Shown piece by piece: positions 28,345-63,873 of a DNA stretch of 64,000 nt. The notes beneath the pieces are model-generated. The model searched no databases, was not told the DNA's origin, and saw only the letters and a program-made list of their open reading frames with translations. The position numbers and the translations under genes are program-made. Source of the DNA: Salegentibacter echinorum (lineage in GTDB: Bacteria > Bacteroidota > Bacteroidia > Flavobacteriales > Flavobacteriaceae); the NCBI RefSeq assembly GCF_900129445.1, contig NZ_FQVT01000002.1:124001-188000 (forward strand), in the 5' to 3' direction. The number at the start of each line of letters is the position of its first letter. Positions within the stretch are counted from its first letter, which is position 1.

Positions 28345-28354
28345 AGCTAAAAAA

Positions 28355-28384
28355 TGTATATAATATATATAGTATACAAATATA
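28355..28384 (-). promoter_or_regulatory. toxin-antitoxin promoter and candidate operator
   Basis: On the minus strand a TATATTTG -7 box occupies 28377-28384. An imperfect palindrome with TGTATA and TATACA arms (28355-28360 and 28373-28378) touches the box and covers the expected transcription start. This is the expected place for antitoxin binding. Confidence 0.55.
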
Positions 28385-28734
28385 ATGTATTATTAATTAA
28401 CGAGTTACTATAGACAAAATTCTCATAGAGATTGTGACGCTTCTTTGAGTTTGAAAAAACAATTAAGATGATTGATTATTAAATCGCTTTACAGCTTTGT
28501 GGTAATGATGTCTATTTATACTATTTTATTAGTCACAAGAACTTCAAAACACGAAGAACTTCTTTATGTTTTCCTGTCTTAGCGGCAAAAGTAAGCAAGA
28601 CGTGCTTTTCAATGAGGACAAGTAAAAAAGAAATCCCGATTACATTAATAGAAAAATATTTGTGACATTTTTTCCACTTTCAATTAAAATCCATTAATTC
28701 AATACCACCGATTTTAAACTTGTTGTCAGAAATT
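28385..28734. other. gene-free region with an imperfect palindromic repeat
   Basis: No ORF of substance lies between the toxin-antitoxin promoter and the GT2 gene. At about 28529-28589 there is an imperfect palindrome in which AAAACACGAAGAA pairs with TTCTTTATGTTTT (11 of 13). Flanking CACAAGAA and CTTAGCGGC segments resemble palindromic extragenic repeats of the CACGAAGAA type common in bacteria. The remainder is plain AT-rich sequence. Confidence 0.5.
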
Positions 28735-43599: not shown

Positions 43600-44096
43600 A
43601 AAAGAATTTTTGATCTGGATTTTTACTAATAGACGCTTTAAATTTTTAAACGAATATTTAATTTATCAATATTGGTTATTGTAAATGAATTAATATTAGC
43701 ATTCTCAGGTAATGATTTTTCAGACATATTTGGATGAATTTTTTCCCTCAAACCTATATTATTTCTAAACAAGTTATGTCATTTTTCGAGTTTTGATGTT
43801 TATCAAAATCAGACTATATTCTTTAAAATTCGCTTTGAAATTTTAGTTTCGTGATAATCTACACTGCAACATAATTCACGAATTTTACAAAATCTACAAG
43901 TCAAGAACTCTAACTCTCTTAAAGAATATTTTAATGATTAATTCAAACTTTTTTTAAACCATAGATTAGGCAAAATACTTCTTCAAAACATTAAAATGGG
44001 CTGAATTTTATTTCTAAAATCCAACCCAATATTTACTACTAATATTCAAAAATAATACTTTAAACTTATTGATGTTCCACGTGGAACGTTAGATAT
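43600..44096. other. AT-rich spacer holding a parS site
   Basis: There is no gene. The right end (44073-44088) holds the parS palindrome. The remainder is AT-rich and lacks good hairpins. Confidence 0.5.
44073..44088. promoter_or_regulatory. parS centromere site, left copy
   Basis: TGTTCCACGTGGAACG contains the 14-base palindrome GTTCCACGTGGAAC at 44074-44087, a form of the ParB-binding parS sequence TGTTNCACGTGNAACA. Only the last base differs from the full site. It lies just after the mnmG stop. Confidence 0.82.
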
Positions 44097-45968
44097 TTAT
44101 CTTCCCAGATAAACCAGTAAAACCGAAATATCATTAGGGCTCACTCCACTAATTCTTGAGGCTTGTGAAATAGAAGTTGGCTGAATTTTATTCAGCTTTT
44201 CCCGTGCTTCAAAAGACATTGATTTTATCTTCGAATAATCAAAACCTGAAGGGATTTTTACATCTTCCAATCTATTCAATTTATCGGCATTATTCTTTTC
44301 CTTCTGAATATAACCCGAATATTTTACCTGAATTTCGGTTTGCTCCAGCATTTCGGTATTCAAATTATGTTCTGTTATGTACTCCTCTACCCCAGGAAAA
44401 TTCCGAATATCTTTCATCGTAATATTTGGTCTCGAAAATACTTTAAAAATCTTATCGCATTGTTTCATTAAAGAAGAATTATTGGCTTCTAAAATGGGGT
44501 TCGCATCATTATGGGAAACACTTTTATTCCGAAGAAACTCAACAAAAGCCTCTGACTTTTCTTTCTTTTCTTCCATCTTTTTCATTCTCTTTTCAGATGC
44601 TAAACCAATTTTATAGGAACGTTCCGTTAACCTAAAGTCGGCATTATCCTGTCGCAATAAAGTACGATACTCGGCACGCGAAGTGAACATCCTGTAAGGC
44701 TCTTCGGTACCTTTAGTAATCAAATCATCAATTAAAACACCAATATATGCCTCATTCCGTTTTATAATAAACTCTTCCTTCTCCTGTACTTTCAAGGCCG
44801 CATTTACACCTGCCATTAAACCCTGGCAAGCCGCTTCTTCATAACCCGTGGTCCCATTAATTTGCCCAGCGAAATAAAGACCTTCAACCAATTTAGTTTC
44901 CAGGGTATGCTTTAATTGTGTTGGTGGAAAATAATCGTATTCAATTGCATAACCGGGTCTAAAGAACTTCACATTTTCAAAACCGGCGACAGAACGCAAA
45001 GCTTTAAATTGAACATCTTCGGGTAGTGAGGTAGAAAACCCATTCACATAAACTTCTACCGTATTCCAACCTTCAGGTTCAACAAATAGTTGATGCCTAT
45101 CTTTATCGGCAAACCGATTAATTTTATCTTCTATACTGGGACAATATCTAGGCCCAATACTTTTAATTCTCCCATTAAACATGGGCGATCTTTCAAAACC
45201 TTCTTTCAAGACCTCATGCACCTCTGGTGAGGTGTAGGTCATATAACAAGAGCGTTGTTTTTCTAAAGGTTTGGTTTCATCTAGAAAAGAGAATTTTGCG
45301 GGTTCTTCATCCCCGGGCTGCTCAATCATTTTAGAGTAATCTAAAGATCTCCCATCTACCCGCGGTGGTGTACCTGTTTTCATTCTACCAGATTCAAAAC
45401 CTACATCCTGCAGGTCTTTGGTAATTCCGGTAGCAGCCCTTTCCCCTGCTCTACCACCACCAAAGTTTTTATCGCCAATATGAATCAAACCATTTAAAAA
45501 AGTACCATTGGTCAAGACTACGGTTTTAGCTCTTATTTCCAAACCTAAAGAAGTTTTCACTCCTTTAAGTTCGTCCCCTTCTAAAATAAGCCCCGCGACC
45601 ATCTCCTGATAAAAATCGAGGTTTGGCGTTTGCTCTAATCTAAGTCGCCAATGTTCAGAAAACATCATACGGTCGCTTTGCACCCTGGGGCTCCACATGG
45701 CAGGTCCTTTAGATTGATTAAGCATTTTAAATTGTATCGCACTGGTATCACTTACCATTGCGCTATAGCCGCCCAAAGCATCAATTTCACGTAATATTTG
45801 TCCTTTCGCAATTCCTCCCATAGCGGGATTACAGCTCATTTGAGCAATATTTTGCAGGTTCATGGTAACCAACAAGGTTTTACAACCCAAATTTGCGGCT
45901 GCAGCGGCAGCTTCGCTTCCTGCGTGCCCCGCTCCAACTACAATTACATCATATTCATTCTCGAACAT
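44097..45968 (-). CDS. mnmG: tRNA uridine-5-carboxymethylaminomethyl modification enzyme MnmG
   Basis: A 623-residue FAD enzyme that, with MnmE, modifies U34 of tRNAs reading split codon boxes. The FAD motif VVGAGHAGSEAAAAAANLG is at residues 10-28. GIAKGQILREIDALGG is near 52 and the conserved ARISG-type C-terminal region appears as ASRISGVSPNDIS. The length is standard. Flanking parS palindromes are of chromosomal interest: this gene (formerly gidA) sits near oriC in many bacteria. Confidence 0.97.
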   Translation of the reverse strand: MFENEYDVIVVGAGHAGSEAAAAAANLGCKTLLVTMNLQNIAQMSCNPAMGGIAKGQILREIDALGGYSAMVSDTSAIQFKMLNQSKGPAMWSPRVQSDRMMFSEHWRLRLEQTPNLDFYQEMVAGLILEGDELKGVKTSLGLEIRAKTVVLTNGTFLNGLIHIGDKNFGGGRAGERAATGITKDLQDVGFESGRMKTGTPPRVDGRSLDYSKMIEQPGDEEPAKFSFLDETKPLEKQRSCYMTYTSPEVHEVLKEGFERSPMFNGRIKSIGPRYCPSIEDKINRFADKDRHQLFVEPEGWNTVEVYVNGFSTSLPEDVQFKALRSVAGFENVKFFRPGYAIEYDYFPPTQLKHTLETKLVEGLYFAGQINGTTGYEEAACQGLMAGVNAALKVQEKEEFIIKRNEAYIGVLIDDLITKGTEEPYRMFTSRAEYRTLLRQDNADFRLTERSYKIGLASEKRMKKMEEKKEKSEAFVEFLRNKSVSHNDANPILEANNSSLMKQCDKIFKVFSRPNITMKDIRNFPGVEEYITEHNLNTEMLEQTEIQVKYSGYIQKEKNNADKLNRLEDVKIPSGFDYSKIKSMSFEAREKLNKIQPTSISQASRISGVSPNDISVLLVYLGR

Positions 45969-45986: not shown

Positions 45987-46418
45987 TTATTGTTCCACGT
46001 GGAACAATGCAATTTTTTCGTCTTCCTTTTGTCGCATTAAAGTGGCTTCACTTTCAGTTTTATCTTTATAACCACATAAATGTAAAATCCCGTGTATAAT
46101 CACTCGTTTTAGTTCTTCAGAAAAATCAACATTATATTCCCTGGCATTTTCTGTCACACGATCTGTGCTTATAAAAATATCCCCGTGTAATTCATCTTCC
46201 TGCGAATTATCAAAAGAAATAATATCGGTATATGTATCGTGTTTTAAAAAGCGTAAATTAATCTTGTATAAATAATCATCGTCACAAAAAATATAATTGA
46301 TCTCACCCAGGCTTTTTCCTTCCGATGAGATGACCTTTTTAATCCAGGCGCTTATAGCCTCCTCATGCTCCAACTCAAAATCATTCTCACTGTGAAAATT
46401 AATTATCCTTTCGTTCAA
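45987..46418 (-). CDS. ybeY: rRNA maturation endoribonuclease YbeY
   Basis: A 143-residue metalloprotein needed for 16S rRNA 3'-end processing and 70S quality control. The metal motif reads HGILHLCGYKDKTESE, matching H-x3-H-x5-H except that the third ligand position holds Asp in place of His. The gene overlaps the upstream DUF4175 gene by 20 bases. Its final codons (FHVEQ stop) are formed by the right parS palindrome. Confidence 0.93.
   Translation of the reverse strand: MNERIINFHSENDFELEHEEAISAWIKKVISSEGKSLGEINYIFCDDDYLYKINLRFLKHDTYTDIISFDNSQEDELHGDIFISTDRVTENAREYNVDFSEELKRVIIHGILHLCGYKDKTESEATLMRQKEDEKIALFHVEQ
45991..46006. promoter_or_regulatory. parS centromere site, right copy
   Basis: TGTTCCACGTGGAACA is a full 16-base palindromic ParB site. 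It overlaps the end of the ybeY coding sequence, where it supplies the codons for FHVEQ. It lies 22 bases before mnmG. Confidence 0.87.
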
Positions 46419-55977: not shown

Positions 55978-56048
55978 GGCATCGTGGCCGAGTGGCTAGG
56001 CAGAGGTCTGCAAAACCTTGTACAGCGGTTCGAATCCGCTCGATGCCT
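55978..56048 (+). tRNA. tRNA-Cys (GCA anticodon)
   Basis: A 71-base tRNA ending at the discriminator T (U73, typical for Cys), without encoded CCA. The acceptor arms GGCATCG and CGATGCC pair perfectly. The D-loop holds GTGGCTAGG, the anticodon stem AGGTC/ACCTT encloses CTGCAAA with anticodon GCA, and the T arm is GCGGTTCGAATCCGC. A terminator follows at 56051. Confidence 0.95.
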
Positions 56049-57888: not shown

Positions 57889-60081
57889 TTATTCGTTATT
57901 TTTCTTTTTCCCAATAAGTGTAAAATCCAGATGCCTTTTTACTAAATCGGCATTTTTAACCTTTACCACAACATCGTCTCCCAACTGATAGGTTTTCCCT
58001 GTTTTGCGGCCTACAACTGCATAATTATCGGCATCAAAATCATAATGATCACCACTTATATCACGCAAACGAATCATTCCTTCACATTTATTTTCTACTA
58101 TTTCCACAAAAATGCCAAAATCTGTTACTCCAGATATTACTCCCAAAAACTCCTTGTTTTCGTGGTCTTGCATAAACTTTACCTGCATATATTTTATAGA
58201 ATCTCTTTCGGCATTAGAAGAAAGGTTTTCCATTTCGCTGGTATGATGGCATTTTTCATCATACTCGTCTTCTTTGACTGATGGTTTATCCTCTAAATAA
58301 CGCTGCAACAAACGATGCACCATCACATCGGGGTATCGTCTAATTGGTGAAGTAAAATGCGTGTAATAATCGAAAGCAAGGCCATAATGGCCAATATTTT
58401 CTGTGCCGTAATAAGCTTTACTCATCGTTCTTATCGCCAGGGTATCTACCAGGTTTTGTTCTTTTTTTCCCTGTACATCCTGTAGTAATTTATTAAGGGA
58501 GGAGGTTACCGTTTTACGGTTTTTTAAGTTTAATCCATGACCAAATCGAGATACTAAATTGTTTAAAGAAACCAGTTTTTCCTCATCGGGTTCATCGTGA
58601 CAACGATAAACAAAAGTTTTCTTTTTCTCTTGTTTTCCAATGAATTCGGCTACCATTCTATTTGCCAAAAGCATAAACTCTTCAATAAGTTTATTGGCTT
58701 CTTTGGCCGTTTTAAAATAAACCCCAACCGGATCGTTATCTTTATCCAATTTAAATTTCACCTCTACTTTATCAAATGAAATAGCACCCTGGCGCATCCT
58801 TACAGCGCGCATTTTTCTCGCCATTCTATTTAAAGTAAGTACAGCTTCAACAATTTCCGGTTGCACCGTATAAGCTTTCTCCTGAATGGAAATATCTTTT
58901 GGAATCTCATCTTTTTCAGTTTCAATTATATGTTGTGCTTCTTCATAAGCAAAGCGGGCATCAGAATAAGTTACCGTTCTACCAAACCATTCTTTAACCA
59001 CTTTTGCGTTCTTATCTAACTCGAAAACAGCAGAAAAAGTATATTTTTCTTCATTAGGTCGCAAGGAACAGGCATTGTTAGAAAGAACTTCTGGCAACAT
59101 AGGTACTACCCTATCTACCAGATAAACCGAAGTTGCGCGCTCATAGGCCTCTTCATCTAAAATATTACCCGGCTGTACATAGTGGGAAACATCGGCAATG
59201 TGAATGCCTATTTCCACATTTCCGTTCTCCAATTTTTCGAAACTAAGAGCATCGTCAAAATCTTTGGCATCGGCGGGATCTATGGTAAAAGTAAGTGCAT
59301 CCCGCATATCCCTACGCTTTTTTACCTCTTCGGGTTGAATGGAAGTATCTAATTTATTGGCAAAATCTTCCACTTCTTCCGGAAATTCATAAGGCAAACC
59401 ATATTGTGCCAGGATTGCGTGGATTTCGGTATGATGTTCTCCCGGAGCTCCCAGTACTTTTTTAATACTACCAAAGGGAGAATCGGCTTTTTCAGGCCAA
59501 TCTTCCAGGCTCACTACTACTTTCTCTCCGTCTTTCGCATCTTTCATCCTGTTCTTCTGAACAAAAATATCAGTGTACATTTTGGGATTATCGATAACTA
59601 CAAAACCAAAATCTTTCTGCATTTCTAAAATGCCCACAAATTCTGTGCGCTTCCTATTAAGGATTTTGGTTACCTCACCTTCAGATTTTTTATTCCTGCG
59701 GCGTTTATAGATATAAATTTCCACCTCATCACCATCGAATGCGGTATTTAAGTTATTTGGAGATATAAAAATATCGTCGTCAAGATCTTCCACTACTGCA
59801 TAGGCATAGCCCTTGGTAGTCATATCTATTTTTGCAGTATAATAATCTTTTCCTTTATTAATTTTGAATTTACCACGTTCAACCTGTTCTATCTGCTTTT
59901 TTCCCGCTAAATGGGCTAACTTTTTAATAATATTATTGCGACTTGTAGCATCATTTACGCCAAGTTTTGCGGCAATTTGTTTATGGTTAAAGTTTTTTCC
60001 CGGCTCTTTTCTCAAGATATCGAGAATACTTTTGGAAAGATCTCCTTTAATGGGAGATTTATTTTTTTTCTTTTTACTCAT
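57889..60081 (-). CDS. rnr: ribonuclease R
   Basis: A 730-residue 3'-5' exoribonuclease that degrades structured RNA. It has an N-terminal helix-turn-helix-like region, cold-shock OB domains, the RNB catalytic domain (DPADAKDFDDALSFEKLENG, about residues 273-292, with acidic metal ligands) and a C-terminal S1 domain. The length is slightly short of E. coli RNase R but complete. Its -7 box is at 60114-60121. Confidence 0.95.
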   Translation of the reverse strand: MSKKKKNKSPIKGDLSKSILDILRKEPGKNFNHKQIAAKLGVNDATSRNNIIKKLAHLAGKKQIEQVERGKFKINKGKDYYTAKIDMTTKGYAYAVVEDLDDDIFISPNNLNTAFDGDEVEIYIYKRRRNKKSEGEVTKILNRKRTEFVGILEMQKDFGFVVIDNPKMYTDIFVQKNRMKDAKDGEKVVVSLEDWPEKADSPFGSIKKVLGAPGEHHTEIHAILAQYGLPYEFPEEVEDFANKLDTSIQPEEVKKRRDMRDALTFTIDPADAKDFDDALSFEKLENGNVEIGIHIADVSHYVQPGNILDEEAYERATSVYLVDRVVPMLPEVLSNNACSLRPNEEKYTFSAVFELDKNAKVVKEWFGRTVTYSDARFAYEEAQHIIETEKDEIPKDISIQEKAYTVQPEIVEAVLTLNRMARKMRAVRMRQGAISFDKVEVKFKLDKDNDPVGVYFKTAKEANKLIEEFMLLANRMVAEFIGKQEKKKTFVYRCHDEPDEEKLVSLNNLVSRFGHGLNLKNRKTVTSSLNKLLQDVQGKKEQNLVDTLAIRTMSKAYYGTENIGHYGLAFDYYTHFTSPIRRYPDVMVHRLLQRYLEDKPSVKEDEYDEKCHHTSEMENLSSNAERDSIKYMQVKFMQDHENKEFLGVISGVTDFGIFVEIVENKCEGMIRLRDISGDHYDFDADNYAVVGRKTGKTYQLGDDVVVKVKNADLVKRHLDFTLIGKKKNNE

Positions 60082-60113
60082 TTCGATAATTAAAAGATAA
60101 AATTACGGCTTCT

Positions 60114-60121
60114 CAAATATA
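60114..60121 (-). promoter_or_regulatory. -7 box of rnr
   Basis: On the minus strand TATATTTG matches TAnnTTTG, placing the start near 60107, 26 bases from the rnr ATG. Confidence 0.5.
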
Positions 60122-61229
60122 TTAGCCAGATTTCACATTAAAGTTTTGTTAAGTAGCTTAAAATAAGCTTTACCTAAATTTAATTTAACTTCAAAAATGA
60201 GCTCAATTTTCTATTTATTACTCTTCTATCCAAGCTTTAAAATTTAAGTTTGAATTATTCTGAAATAAAATAAAACCCCGATTTTATTTTAATATTTTAT
60301 TAATAAAAAATAATCAAATCACGAATTTATATTTTCTTGTTTTTCCAATTAATTTTTGAAGTTCTTCTGCATCAGAAACATACAAATTTCAATTAAATAA
60401 TTAGTAGTATATTTTAGTAATCGCCATCTTTTAATTTTAGAAAATTATTATTGAAACTTCCATTCCTAAACTATTTTTATTCCAAGGCTATTTTAAAAAT
60501 TTCCCTTTTTAAAAATCTTTAAATTTAAGTTTTACAAAAGCTTGATGTTCAATCACTCAGGCTAAATGGGCCTTATTTGAATTCAAAGTAGCGAGGTATT
60601 TTAAATTTTAAAACCCCTAATTTTAAGTAAGTTATACTATTTTTTAAGGTAAATCTGTTTTTGAAAAGGGAAATTAGCTCAATAACAAAACTAAGAAGTT
60701 TTCTATTTCAAAATCAATTTTTATAAAACATCTCATTCGGTTATTAACAATATATACTATTATTATTATTTCTTCTTTTTTAAAAAATTAAAACTAATGG
60801 TTATTATAGGCTGTTAATTTGTAGCACAATTATTTTGAACTTTATTTGGTATTTCAGGAAGCTCTTTTTTATACCGGGTTATCAACATCTATATTGAAAC
60901 TTAAGCATCTGACATTCTTATACTTTTAATACTTTCTTAACAAAAGTTAATAACTACCATCCCGGAATTATTCTTTAAAATTTTAAAAAATATTCCTGTT
61001 CACAACCTGTTTTTATATGCTGATAACTTTTCTAAAAATAGCCGACTTATAATTTGATTTTGAAGAATAAAAAATCCATTTGAAATTTTAATTGAAACCT
61101 GCAAATAAGTTTCTCAGTTTCTCATCAAAGCTTATTCACAATTATATGTTTATTGTAAACACCTGATTTCTAAAGAAACCAAAAAAGTAATTAACAATTG
61201 ATAATAACCCTGTTAGTAAGCGGTTTTTT
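60122..61229. other. long AT-rich intergenic region, candidate replication origin
   Basis: About 1.1 kb without a gene is unusual in this compact window. It holds one perfect DnaA box TTATTCACA (61132-61140), and TTATTAACA (60741-60749) and TTATCAACA (60879-60887), each one base from TTATNCACA. CTGTTCACA at 60996-61004 is a weaker match. There are long A/T-only runs suited to unwinding. parS sites lie about 14-16 kb to the left, and genes to the left run mostly leftwards. Origin function is inferred, not proven. Confidence 0.6.
61132..61140 (+). promoter_or_regulatory. DnaA box (TTATTCACA)
   Basis: This is a full match to the DnaA-box consensus TTATNCACA. It is the best of several box-like sites in the AT-rich gap between rnr and rpiB. 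Confidence 0.55.
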
Positions 61230-61237
61230 TACCTTTG
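61230..61237 (+). promoter_or_regulatory. -7 box of rpiB
   Basis: TACCTTTG matches TAnnTTTG. Transcription would start near 61244, 13 bases before the ATG. Confidence 0.6.
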
Positions 61238-61256
61238 TAACTTAAAATATATATAG

Positions 61257-61685
61257 ATGAAAATAGCAATTGGAAACGATCACGCCGGTACTTCTTATAA
61301 GAAAACGGTTGTTGAACATTTGAAAAACAAGGGAATAGAAGTTATTAACTATGGTACTAACAGTGAGGAAAGTGTAGATTATCCAGATTTTGTGCATCCG
61401 GTGGCAAACGATGTGGAAAACAATACTGTAGATTTTGGTATCATAATTTGCGGAAGTGGAAATGGTGCTAATATGACCGCTAATAAACACCAGGGAGTTC
61501 GTTCGGCGCTTTGTTGGACAGGAGAAATCACTAAACTGGCCCGGGAGCATAACAATGCCAATGTATTAAGTATTCCCGCCAGGTTTGTTTCAGAACATCA
61601 AGCTGTAGGAATGGTAGATTTGTTTTTGCAAACCGCTTTTGAAGGTGGCAGACATCAAAACAGGATTAATAAAATTCCTGTATGA
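61257..61685 (+). CDS. rpiB: ribose 5-phosphate isomerase B
   Basis: This 142-residue enzyme interconverts ribose 5-phosphate and ribulose 5-phosphate in the pentose phosphate pathway. The start MKIAIGNDHAGTSYKKTVVEHL, the active-site segment IIICGSGNGANMTANK (about residues 61-76, with the catalytic Cys64) and the C-terminal HQNRINKI are typical. The length is normal. It borders the candidate origin gap. Confidence 0.95.
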   Translation: MKIAIGNDHAGTSYKKTVVEHLKNKGIEVINYGTNSEESVDYPDFVHPVANDVENNTVDFGIIICGSGNGANMTANKHQGVRSALCWTGEITKLAREHNNANVLSIPARFVSEHQAVGMVDLFLQTAFEGGRHQNRINKIPV

Positions 61686-61731
61686 GAGTAATTGTTTCCA
61701 GAAGAGGATTTTTAAAAATTAAAACGATTAT

Positions 61732-62169
61732 ATGGTGCTTTTAATCAAAACGTTTAGGGAGCTCAGTTTGGAAGAATTGTATGAATTGCTCCAATTGCGT
61801 TCTCAAATATTTGTGGTAGAACAGGATTGCGTTTACCAGGATATTGATGGAAAAGATGCCGATGCGCTGCATATTATTGGAAAAAAGGACGGAAAAATAG
61901 TGGGATATGCCCGCTGTTTTCCGCCTAAATATTATTTTGAAGAGGCCGCAATTGGTCGGGTTTTAGTAAAGGAATCCCAGCGCAAATATGGCTATGGGCA
62001 CCTTATTCTTAAGGCGTCAATTAATGCCATTGCAAAACACTATAAAACACAGGAAATTAAGCTTTCTGCACAACAATATCTAACCGCATTTTATGAAAGC
62101 CACGGCTTTATGCAAATAGGCGAAGGTTACCTGGAAGATGGTATTCCCCATATTGCGATGCTGAAATAA
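61732..62169 (+). CDS. GNAT acetyltransferase, ElaA-like
   Basis: A 145-residue GNAT protein. The N-terminal LYELLQLRSQIFVVEQDCVYQDIDG (about 17-41) and the acetyl-CoA region IGRVLVKESQRKYGYGHLI (about 76-94) match the ElaA group. The substrate is unknown. It lies 46 bases after rpiB and may be cotranscribed. A short hydrophobic C-terminus follows. Confidence 0.9.
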   Translation: MVLLIKTFRELSLEELYELLQLRSQIFVVEQDCVYQDIDGKDADALHIIGKKDGKIVGYARCFPPKYYFEEAAIGRVLVKESQRKYGYGHLILKASINAIAKHYKTQEIKLSAQQYLTAFYESHGFMQIGEGYLEDGIPHIAMLK

Positions 62170-62238
62170 AGTTATAAATGGAATAATACCTTTTATTATG
62201 AAGTTTAGAGTATGTTTTTATTCAGCTAAAAAATTAAT

Positions 62239-63873
62239 CTATCTAAGTATTTCAGCATAACGTGAATTGTCGTTTAAAATAGACTTTGCTTTTGTGATTT
62301 CGGGATTGTGGTTTACGTAGTAATCATACAAACCTTCTTTATAGAAATAGCGCTTAATGATTTCATCGGTCAATAGGCTAACTATTTCGTGTTTTTTATC
62401 CTCCAGTGCTTTCTTTTTTTCAGAATTAATTTCCGAAGAAATACTTTTATAATTCGTTAAAATGTCTTTTTCATAACCTTCTTTGGAAGCTGTGGCAAGT
62501 AAATCTTCCAATTGCTTTTCTGTTTCGGTTTTATATTCAAAACCAGAAGTTTTTAAATAATCTTTAAAATCTTTAAAATCGGCATCGGTGAATGTAAAAG
62601 CATCGGGACTATTCAGGGAATTTTTGTAGTAATACTTCGTAGCGTAGTCAAAAATCGCATCCTGGGCAAGCAAAGCGTTGGTAACACTACTGTACTCTGA
62701 AGTTTCCAATTTCACATCGGGAGAAATCCCGCCACCATCAAAAACTTTTCTTCCGTTTTTAGTAGTGAATTCATTGTGTTCTTCTATTCCCGTGGTCAAT
62801 GCTTTTCCACTCTCGTCCCTTTTGCTGTAATCAAGCGCCTGGATACACCTTCCGCTGGGCGTATAATACCTGGAAATTGTGATCTTTAGTTGGGTGCCAT
62901 AAGCCAGTTCTTTAGGACGCTGTACCAGGCCTTTGCCATAACTGCGGGCACCTACCACTACTCCCCTATCTAAATCCTGAATGGCTCCTGCCACAATTTC
63001 ACTCGCAGAGGCGCTACGCCCATTTATCAAAACCACTAAGGGAATTTGCGTATCTATGGGCTCTTTTTTGGTATGATAGCGTTTATTGTACTTCTTAATT
63101 ACAGATTTTGTGCTGGTAATTAATTCATTTCTAGGCAGGAAAATATTGCTCACATTAATGGCTTCAGTGAGAAGTCCGCCGGGATTGCCACGCAGGTCTA
63201 AAATTATCTTTTCTGCTCCTTTATTTTTTAGGTCTTTTAAGGCACTAGTAGTTTCCCGGGAAGCTTTGGCATTAAAACGGGAAAGCACAATATAACCGGT
63301 TTTATTATCTAAAAGTTTATAAAAAGGAACAGCTTTTAAATTAATAGATGTTCTTTTGAGCCTGGTTTCTTTTATTTCGCCCTGGCGTTTGTAAATGATA
63401 TCTATTTTAGAATTTGGAGATCCATTTAAGAGTTCTCCCACCTCTTCTTTAAAATTAGCTACTTCTACCCCATCAATTTTTATAATCCTGTCTCCGGCTT
63501 TTAATCCGGCTTTGTCTGCAGGATAACCTTTATAGGGTTCCATAATAATTAAGGCATCTTTGCCTACTTTTACCGTGGCGCCAATCCCACTGTACTCTCC
63601 AGAGTTATTGATCCTGGCGGCTTCTACATCCTGCTCGTTCCAATAATTGGTATAGGGATCTAAATCGGCAAGCATGGCCGTGATCGCGGTATCCATAAGG
63701 GCGGCAGGATTGGTTTCTTCAACATAATTCATGTTGATTTCCTTAAAAAGCGTGGTGAAAATTTCAATTTGTTTGGCGATTTCAAAAAAATCAGATTTAA
63801 AACCAAAACTGCTAAATATGAGCATGCCACCAAGACTTAAAAGGGCAATCTTTTTAATGAATTTATTTTTCAT
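62239..63873 (-). CDS. carboxy-terminal processing protease (S41, CtpA-type)
   Basis: A 544-residue exported serine protease. It has a signal peptide or anchor (about 1-24), a PDZ domain (about 88-170) and an S41 core. The catalytic Ser is in GRSASASEIVAGAIQD (about residues 279-294) and the catalytic Lys in YGKGLVQ. It trims or degrades envelope proteins with exposed C-termini. It lies 68 bases after the upstream gene, which fits the common rnpA-ctpA order in flavobacteria. Confidence 0.93.
   Translation of the reverse strand: MKNKFIKKIALLSLGGMLIFSSFGFKSDFFEIAKQIEIFTTLFKEINMNYVEETNPAALMDTAITAMLADLDPYTNYWNEQDVEAARINNSGEYSGIGATVKVGKDALIIMEPYKGYPADKAGLKAGDRIIKIDGVEVANFKEEVGELLNGSPNSKIDIIYKRQGEIKETRLKRTSINLKAVPFYKLLDNKTGYIVLSRFNAKASRETTSALKDLKNKGAEKIILDLRGNPGGLLTEAINVSNIFLPRNELITSTKSVIKKYNKRYHTKKEPIDTQIPLVVLINGRSASASEIVAGAIQDLDRGVVVGARSYGKGLVQRPKELAYGTQLKITISRYYTPSGRCIQALDYSKRDESGKALTTGIEEHNEFTTKNGRKVFDGGGISPDVKLETSEYSSVTNALLAQDAIFDYATKYYYKNSLNSPDAFTFTDADFKDFKDYLKTSGFEYKTETEKQLEDLLATASKEGYEKDILTNYKSISSEINSEKKKALEDKKHEIVSLLTDEIIKRYFYKEGLYDYYVNHNPEITKAKSILNDNSRYAEILR

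Follow-up and report, generated by a model that had tools for sequence, protein, structure and literature searches.

Whether the long intergenic gap between rnr and rpiB is the place at which chromosomal replication begins is the question raised by this locus, which lies within a window of 64,000 nt (the whole stretch of DNA analysed; C29 124001–188000, from a genome of 3.96 Mb in 40 contigs). An origin between these two genes had been put forward in a preliminary description, and that placement is now supported by a module found in most of the family genomes examined and by a change in skew sign around it. Judged from sequence, the chromosomal replication origin (oriC) is very probably the half of the gap on the rpiB side, since this half harbours a nearly single-copy conserved module located at the sign change in strand composition. 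The gap, its neighbours and the individual boxes are as follows.

60082–61256, no strand assigned: rnr–rpiB intergenic gap, the right ~550 bp being the proposed oriC
57889–60081, minus strand: rnr, left neighbour (Pfam RNB)
61257–61685, plus strand: rpiB, right neighbour (Pfam LacAB_rpiB)
60741–60749, plus strand: box A, TTATTAACA, DnaA-like and pointing into an AT-rich tract
60879–60887, plus strand: box B, TTATCAACA
60945–60953, minus strand: candidate box C, AGTTAATAA, weak, with one mismatch to inverted TTATTAACA
60996–61005, no strand assigned: candidate box D, CTGTTCACAA, in the conserved block TGTTCACAACCTG, with CTGTTCACA at 60996–61004
61132–61140, plus strand: box E, TTATTCACA, which is TTATCCACA in most same-genus relatives
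61230–61237, plus strand: TACCTTTG, probable −7 element of the rpiB promoter, outside the origin

The genes rnr and rpiB are divergent, with the gap between them, and the best named relatives of RpiB are from the Flavobacteriaceae (77–79 % identity). TACCTTTG is read as a −7 element by the Bacteroidota consensus TAnnTTTG. Long A/T-only runs had been described for the gap, and the longest such run of the window (34 bases, starting at 60281) does indeed sit inside it. A search with RpiB of 14 same-genus relatives returned 13 loci, with none from G007 (61 % complete), and across these and the present genome the gap measures 1110–1211 bp. The rnr-side half harbours an ORF of 56–65 aa in all 13 relatives (L018–L030), and of 54–65 aa when L036, which also contains it, is counted; the ORF resembles MNKAKKISLLFF... 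and has a single hydrophobic stretch near its start. This ORF is absent from the present genome, where AT-rich debris occupies the same place (60082–60700). As the rnr-side half is thus occupied by a small ORF in the relatives, the conserved part of the origin is taken to be the right ~550 bp. A further small ORF of 80 aa is present in the gaps of L029 and L036, with a shorter relative of 43 aa in L037.

Within the genus, the spacing of the boxes relative to rpiB is largely retained. Box E is found at −125 to −128 in all 14 loci, whilst box B (−378 to −380) and box A (−516 to −518) each hold their position in 12, the deviating loci at both being L028 and L029. Conservation of the boxes in close relatives, on which the earlier proposal depended, is therefore evident, with those at 60741 and 60879 keeping their distance from rpiB in 11 of 13 relatives and that at 61132 in 13 of 13. 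Much of the same box arrangement is also seen in L036, from another genus; an exact box C occurs in L030 and L036 only.

The four boxes of the preliminary description are present where they had been placed (TTATTCACA at 61132–61140, TTATTAACA at 60741–60749, TTATCAACA at 60879–60887 and CTGTTCACA at 60996–61004), but their number is not significant, and it is comparison between genomes that carries the case. Allowing up to one mismatch, the gap contains three boxes against 1.72 expected, and three or more arise in 124 of 500 shuffles; with density in the gap at chance level, the box count was dropped as evidence for an origin. Exact TTATNCACA occurs in the gap once (equalled by 22 of 500 shuffles) and exact TTATNNACA three times against 0.41 expected (equalled by 3 of 500), and the entire window holds 90 boxes against 73.0 ± 8.2 expected. 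The origin reading therefore stands, but its core differs from the box cluster originally described, being instead a stretch of ~100 bp closed by an inverted second box, the elements of which are given below.

60738–60839, plus strand: conserved module, proposed unwinding core (match to model R1, E 7.5e-18, this sequence being one of the 24 used to train the model)
60750–60794, no strand assigned: AT-rich tract, proposed DNA unwinding element
60795–60809, plus strand: triplet-periodic element, TAATGGTTATTATAG in the present genome
60812–60820, minus strand: box A′, TGTTAATTT, inverted and DnaA-like

The order of elements in the module is box A, AT-rich tract, triplet-periodic element and inverted box A′, and alignment of the 24 loci displays box A and the AT-rich tract followed by approximately TGRTGNTTATKATRGNNTGTTAATA. 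For scoring, 131 module sequences were reduced to 120 distinct ones, 116 of which have room for box A. Exact TTATNNACA occupies the box A position in 91 of the 116, and the remaining 25 depart from it by at most one mismatch; after one shuffle per module only five exact examples were obtained. In 113 of 116 modules, the distance from the start of box A to box A′ is 70–73 bp, such that it is conserved DnaA boxes at fixed spacing, though not box density in this one genome, that characterize the locus. Box A′ itself is degenerate in this genus and reads TGTTAATAA/G/T in most others. The AT-rich element adjoining the boxes is of low stability, with the 50 bp from 60741 forming the second least stable non-overlapping stretch of the window in terms of duplex stability. 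The least stable 50-bp stretch is at 28350–28400, outside the gap. Beside A′, a T occupies each third position in 115, 109, 111, 118 and 119 of the 120 modules, and the chance that five T columns should share one phase across 15 is about 1 in 1000 by post hoc arithmetic. DnaA-trios can also be read from box A into the T-rich tract; this is a visual impression from the window and is not relied upon, because runs of A easily satisfy such a pattern.

With regard to distribution, an HMM made from the last 540 bp of the gap has matches in other genera, and a module model was accordingly assessed more broadly. This model is built from the module sequence alone, using 24 loci that match by construction. 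Amongst 149 family genomes (148 genera), several of which had supplied training loci, the module is present in 134 at E ≤ 0.01 and in 130 at E ≤ 0.001; the 15 genomes with no match to the model include 7 of the 125 that are of good quality. There is generally one strong match per genome, as would be anticipated for an element present once per chromosome, and the weaker second matches in some genomes are partly the same near-palindrome read on the opposite strand. Similarly, of 80 named loci retrieved with RpiB (Gillisia, Maribacter, Zobellia, Formosa, Flavobacterium and others), 77 possess the module, which is missing from L217, L262 and L264. When 119 genomes were drawn from the order, 40 matches at E ≤ 0.01 were obtained, comprising 12 from the same family and 28, many of them weak, from other families, whilst three genomes of the same family, all of genus g146, had no module match. 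In those other families rpiB is beside the module in 9 of 18 excised loci (f7, f14 and f15), and the module model includes no rpiB sequence. A class-wide draw of 60 genomes yielded four matches at E ≤ 0.001, namely the genome under study and three weak examples from other families. From these draws the module would appear to extend no further than the order, within the reach of the model.

The constant company of rpiB raises the possibility that the module serves rnr or rpiB as a promoter, operator or leader and is no origin at all. In keeping with such a role, 119 of the 134 genomes with a module have it on the rpiB strand and 265–637 bp upstream of that gene, and a tiny in-frame reading from ATG to a TGT-stop end can be found in 95 of 120 modules. 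The association is not obligatory, however. The module is 1.7–2.75 kb upstream of rpiB in five genomes and 18 kb upstream in one, and the two are on different contigs in 5 of 134, one of these, G163, having a further match close to rpiB. In three of the 134 rpiB is undetected; two of these (G116 and G180, 99–100 % complete) have clear module matches, and the third (G094, 80 % complete) a weak one. As the module can occur without rpiB, or distant from it, it is more than a control region for rpiB, and the skew flip located at the module of G116 also argues against that role. Also against such a role is the Rfam search, which at gathering thresholds places no family in the gap (its sole match in the window is a tRNA at 55978–56048). 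The tiny leader ORF, which falls in the triplet element, was rejected because its pattern of variation is unlike that of coding sequence, a second codon position being free (T39, C38, G29, A14) and a third position fixed in 119 of 120. A role solely in controlling rnr or rpiB is thus extremely improbable. Two further observations concern individual genomes. In G060 and G091 the rpiB matches contain an in-frame TAA, and both genomes are without a module match. In the single-contig genome G178, rpiB is at 2498042 and the sole module match, a weak one, is 2.2 Mb away; the origin of this genome may have diverged or moved.

If the module marks the origin, GC skew should change sign there. The raw cumulative minimum (over C29 1–308000, 308 kb) is 16.4 kb to the right of the gap, where the minus strand carries most of the genes as far as ~77 kb, and it is to this run of genes that the displacement is attributed. 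The raw minimum, displaced by 16 kb here and by 10 kb in G009 (a single-contig genome of the same genus), was therefore not accepted as the origin. A breakpoint was instead fitted by least squares to the G and C of fourfold-degenerate and intergenic sites, with terms for gene strand and for a single breakpoint, moved in steps of 500 bp. The strand-corrected breakpoint falls at window position 61500, with 61000–63000 within 2 lnL units, and so its support is 0.2–2.2 kb to the right of the module and not on it. For G009, the best position is 1.8 kb to the right of the module, with an interval from −36 to +3.8 kb. Both intervals are optimistic, as the fit assumes that sites are independent, which they are not.

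At the scale of the chromosome, samples of 20 kb from G009 have mainly negative skew between 1.4 and 2.4 Mb, whilst those running from 2.8 Mb past the end of the sequence to 0.6 Mb are mainly positive; the flip is at the homologous place, with a local minimum 10 kb to the right of the gap. Five single-contig genomes of other genera (G028, G035, G097, G136 and G107), sampled at 5, 15, 25, 35 and 45 % of the chromosome on each side of the module, are negative on the left in 24 of 25 samples and positive on the right in 22 of 25, the exceptions belonging to G136 and G107. In G116 (three contigs, rpiB undetected), sampled to 1.2 Mb per side, positive values are seen in 5 of 5 samples and negative in 4 of 5. 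Outside the family, G218 has the expected sign in 5 of 5 and 5 of 5 samples, whilst G272, from the same family as G218, is negative in 5 of 5 but positive in only 2 of 5. The module thus lies at a change in GC-skew sign, with mixed or weak skew in G136, G107 and G272, and such samples place the origin within roughly 5–15 % of chromosome length of the module and no finer. Once gene strand is corrected for, the breakpoint is thus close to the gap in which the preliminary description anticipated a skew minimum, and the relatives flip around the module. Further along the contig, at C29 252001–308000 (65–120 kb to the right of the gap), skew is mostly negative again, and this may be a rearranged segment.

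A second candidate for the origin is the mnmG neighbourhood of the window, at ~44–46 kb, in which case the rnr–rpiB gap would merely be nearby. Its features are as follows.

45991–46006, no strand assigned: perfect parS, beside and just upstream of mnmG, 14.1 kb left of the gap
44073–44088, no strand assigned: parS with a single mismatch, 16.0 kb left of the gap
44775–45950 (C29:168775–169950), minus strand: mnmG (PF01134 match)

The parS sites, for which 0.13 per shuffle would be expected, are at the 14–16 kb from the gap previously reported, but they belong to the neighbourhood of mnmG. That neighbourhood is near the module in all 11 genomes checked (the module position in G009 and G010 being taken from their rpiB loci), and nine of the 11 contain perfect parS, as a single cluster beside mnmG that is 13–55 kb from the module and always on its box-A side. 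In the two without perfect parS (G218 and G272, from another family), 19 and 42 kb separate mnmG from the module, again on the box-A side. An origin at mnmG would be consistent with this proximity, and one report places the origin of Algorimicrobium, a member of the family, at mnmG using Ori-Finder 2022 (PMC12843772), a prediction that fits the neighbourhood of the module yet points away from the module itself. The distance between module and parS is variable, however (13 to 55 kb, with ~54 kb between module and mnmG in G097 and G107), and exact TTATNCACA is absent from several kb around mnmG in the window. Moreover, shifting the skew breakpoint to the vicinity of mnmG, 15.8 kb to the left, lowers 2lnL by 20.5 in the present genome (17.9 when a shorter stretch is fitted) and by 9.1 in G009. 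An origin at mnmG is accordingly considered very unlikely, and that within the rpiB-side half of the gap is preferred.

An origin beside dnaA is a common arrangement in bacteria, and might be looked for here. No point in support of this location was found, and its probability is close to negligible. As already indicated in the preliminary description, dnaA is not adjacent to the gap, being located on another contig; the dnaA of G009, at 1.55 Mb, is more than 1 Mb from the flip, and the samples flanking it (1.4 and 1.6 Mb) both have negative skew. In addition, a Prevotella study describes oriC as commonly distant from dnaA in Bacteroidetes (PMC4755523), which also counts against this location.

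The module invites comparison with the basal unwinding system (BUS) of Bacillus subtilis, which, in the sections of the reports considered here, comprises DnaA boxes, DnaA-trios and an AT-rich tract (PMC8287927; PMC10721633). As in that description, a box with its TGT end facing inward is followed in order by a short spacer, a triplet-periodic array and an AT-rich tract, the array adjoins a box, and the arrangement is nearly single-copy. Unlike the BUS so described, the locus has triplets that differ from the 3′-GAT-5′ repeat, is bounded beyond its tract by another inward-facing box and is not adjacent to dnaA; in DnaA, the residues that contact guanine are not conserved. From A′, in the 3′ to 5′ direction, the array gives TA[T/G], TAT, TNG, TRG and TAA after 4 bases, or GRT, AKT, ATT, NGT and AGT after 2 bases, neither frame being a GAT repeat. 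Adenine is central in 118, 118, 41 and 77 of 120 modules in one frame, whilst only the first triplet of the other is GAT-like.

For the protein, DnaA of this genome (L002:973–2400, minus strand) was aligned to 8btg_A, taken to be from B. subtilis by the numbering in the paper. Residues N187, R202 and E228 of B. subtilis correspond to Q216, I231 and V257. Amongst 30 aligned loci, including that under study, equivalents of Q216, I231 and V257 are identical in all three further members of the family. The two guanine positions are V and I in f17, I and A in f18 (two loci) and A and S in f5 of the order; the other 22 loci of the phylum, from other classes, have Ser or Thr at the first in all 22 cases and keep Glu at the second in 16. 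Given this wide variation, any link between pocket and triplets is hypothetical. One tentative, and on balance unlikely, suggestion is that Flavobacteriales have changed the single-strand code, with an array of 3′-TAN-5′ and not 3′-GAT-5′ and a DnaA pocket altered in concert. Hydrophobic I231 and V257, in place of the guanine-holding R202 and E228, might then suit the methyl group of thymine, and Gln216 would hypothetically stand in for the adenine-binding Asn187.

If replication does start in the rpiB-side half of the gap, DnaA would bind the inward-facing A and A′, together with B, E and perhaps C and D downstream. A filament could then grow from A′ across the triplet array on one strand, opening the AT-rich tract between A′ and A, where the helicase would be loaded. 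Two forks would depart, one via rnr towards mnmG and parS, and the other via rpiB, with parS, ~15 kb away, presumably serving ParB-dependent segregation of the new origins.

In oriC of Escherichia coli, DnaA boxes are beside an AT-rich unwinding element, with the nearest box pointing at it. The present locus is similar in that boxes adjoin an AT-rich element that the nearest box faces, and different in its neighbouring genes and box array. Closer in lineage, a 649-bp oriC was predicted in Elizabethkingia meningoseptica by Ori-Finder (PMC8994065), and this, too, is not beside dnaA. In the parts of the reports available, Ori-Finder predictions for Flavobacteriales describe neither a conserved core nor an rnr–rpiB position. 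A search of open-access PubMed Central returned no paper on the module or on an rnr–rpiB origin; the position may already be recorded in DoriC.

For the family, the significance of the module is that a signature of ~100 bp locates the probable oriC from sequence in most of the genomes examined, drafts included, and does so where adjacency to dnaA fails and raw skew misleads. It is, in addition, a candidate origin for plasmids and for estimates of replication rate in this group, and offers a route to asking whether DnaA and its single-strand code co-evolve.
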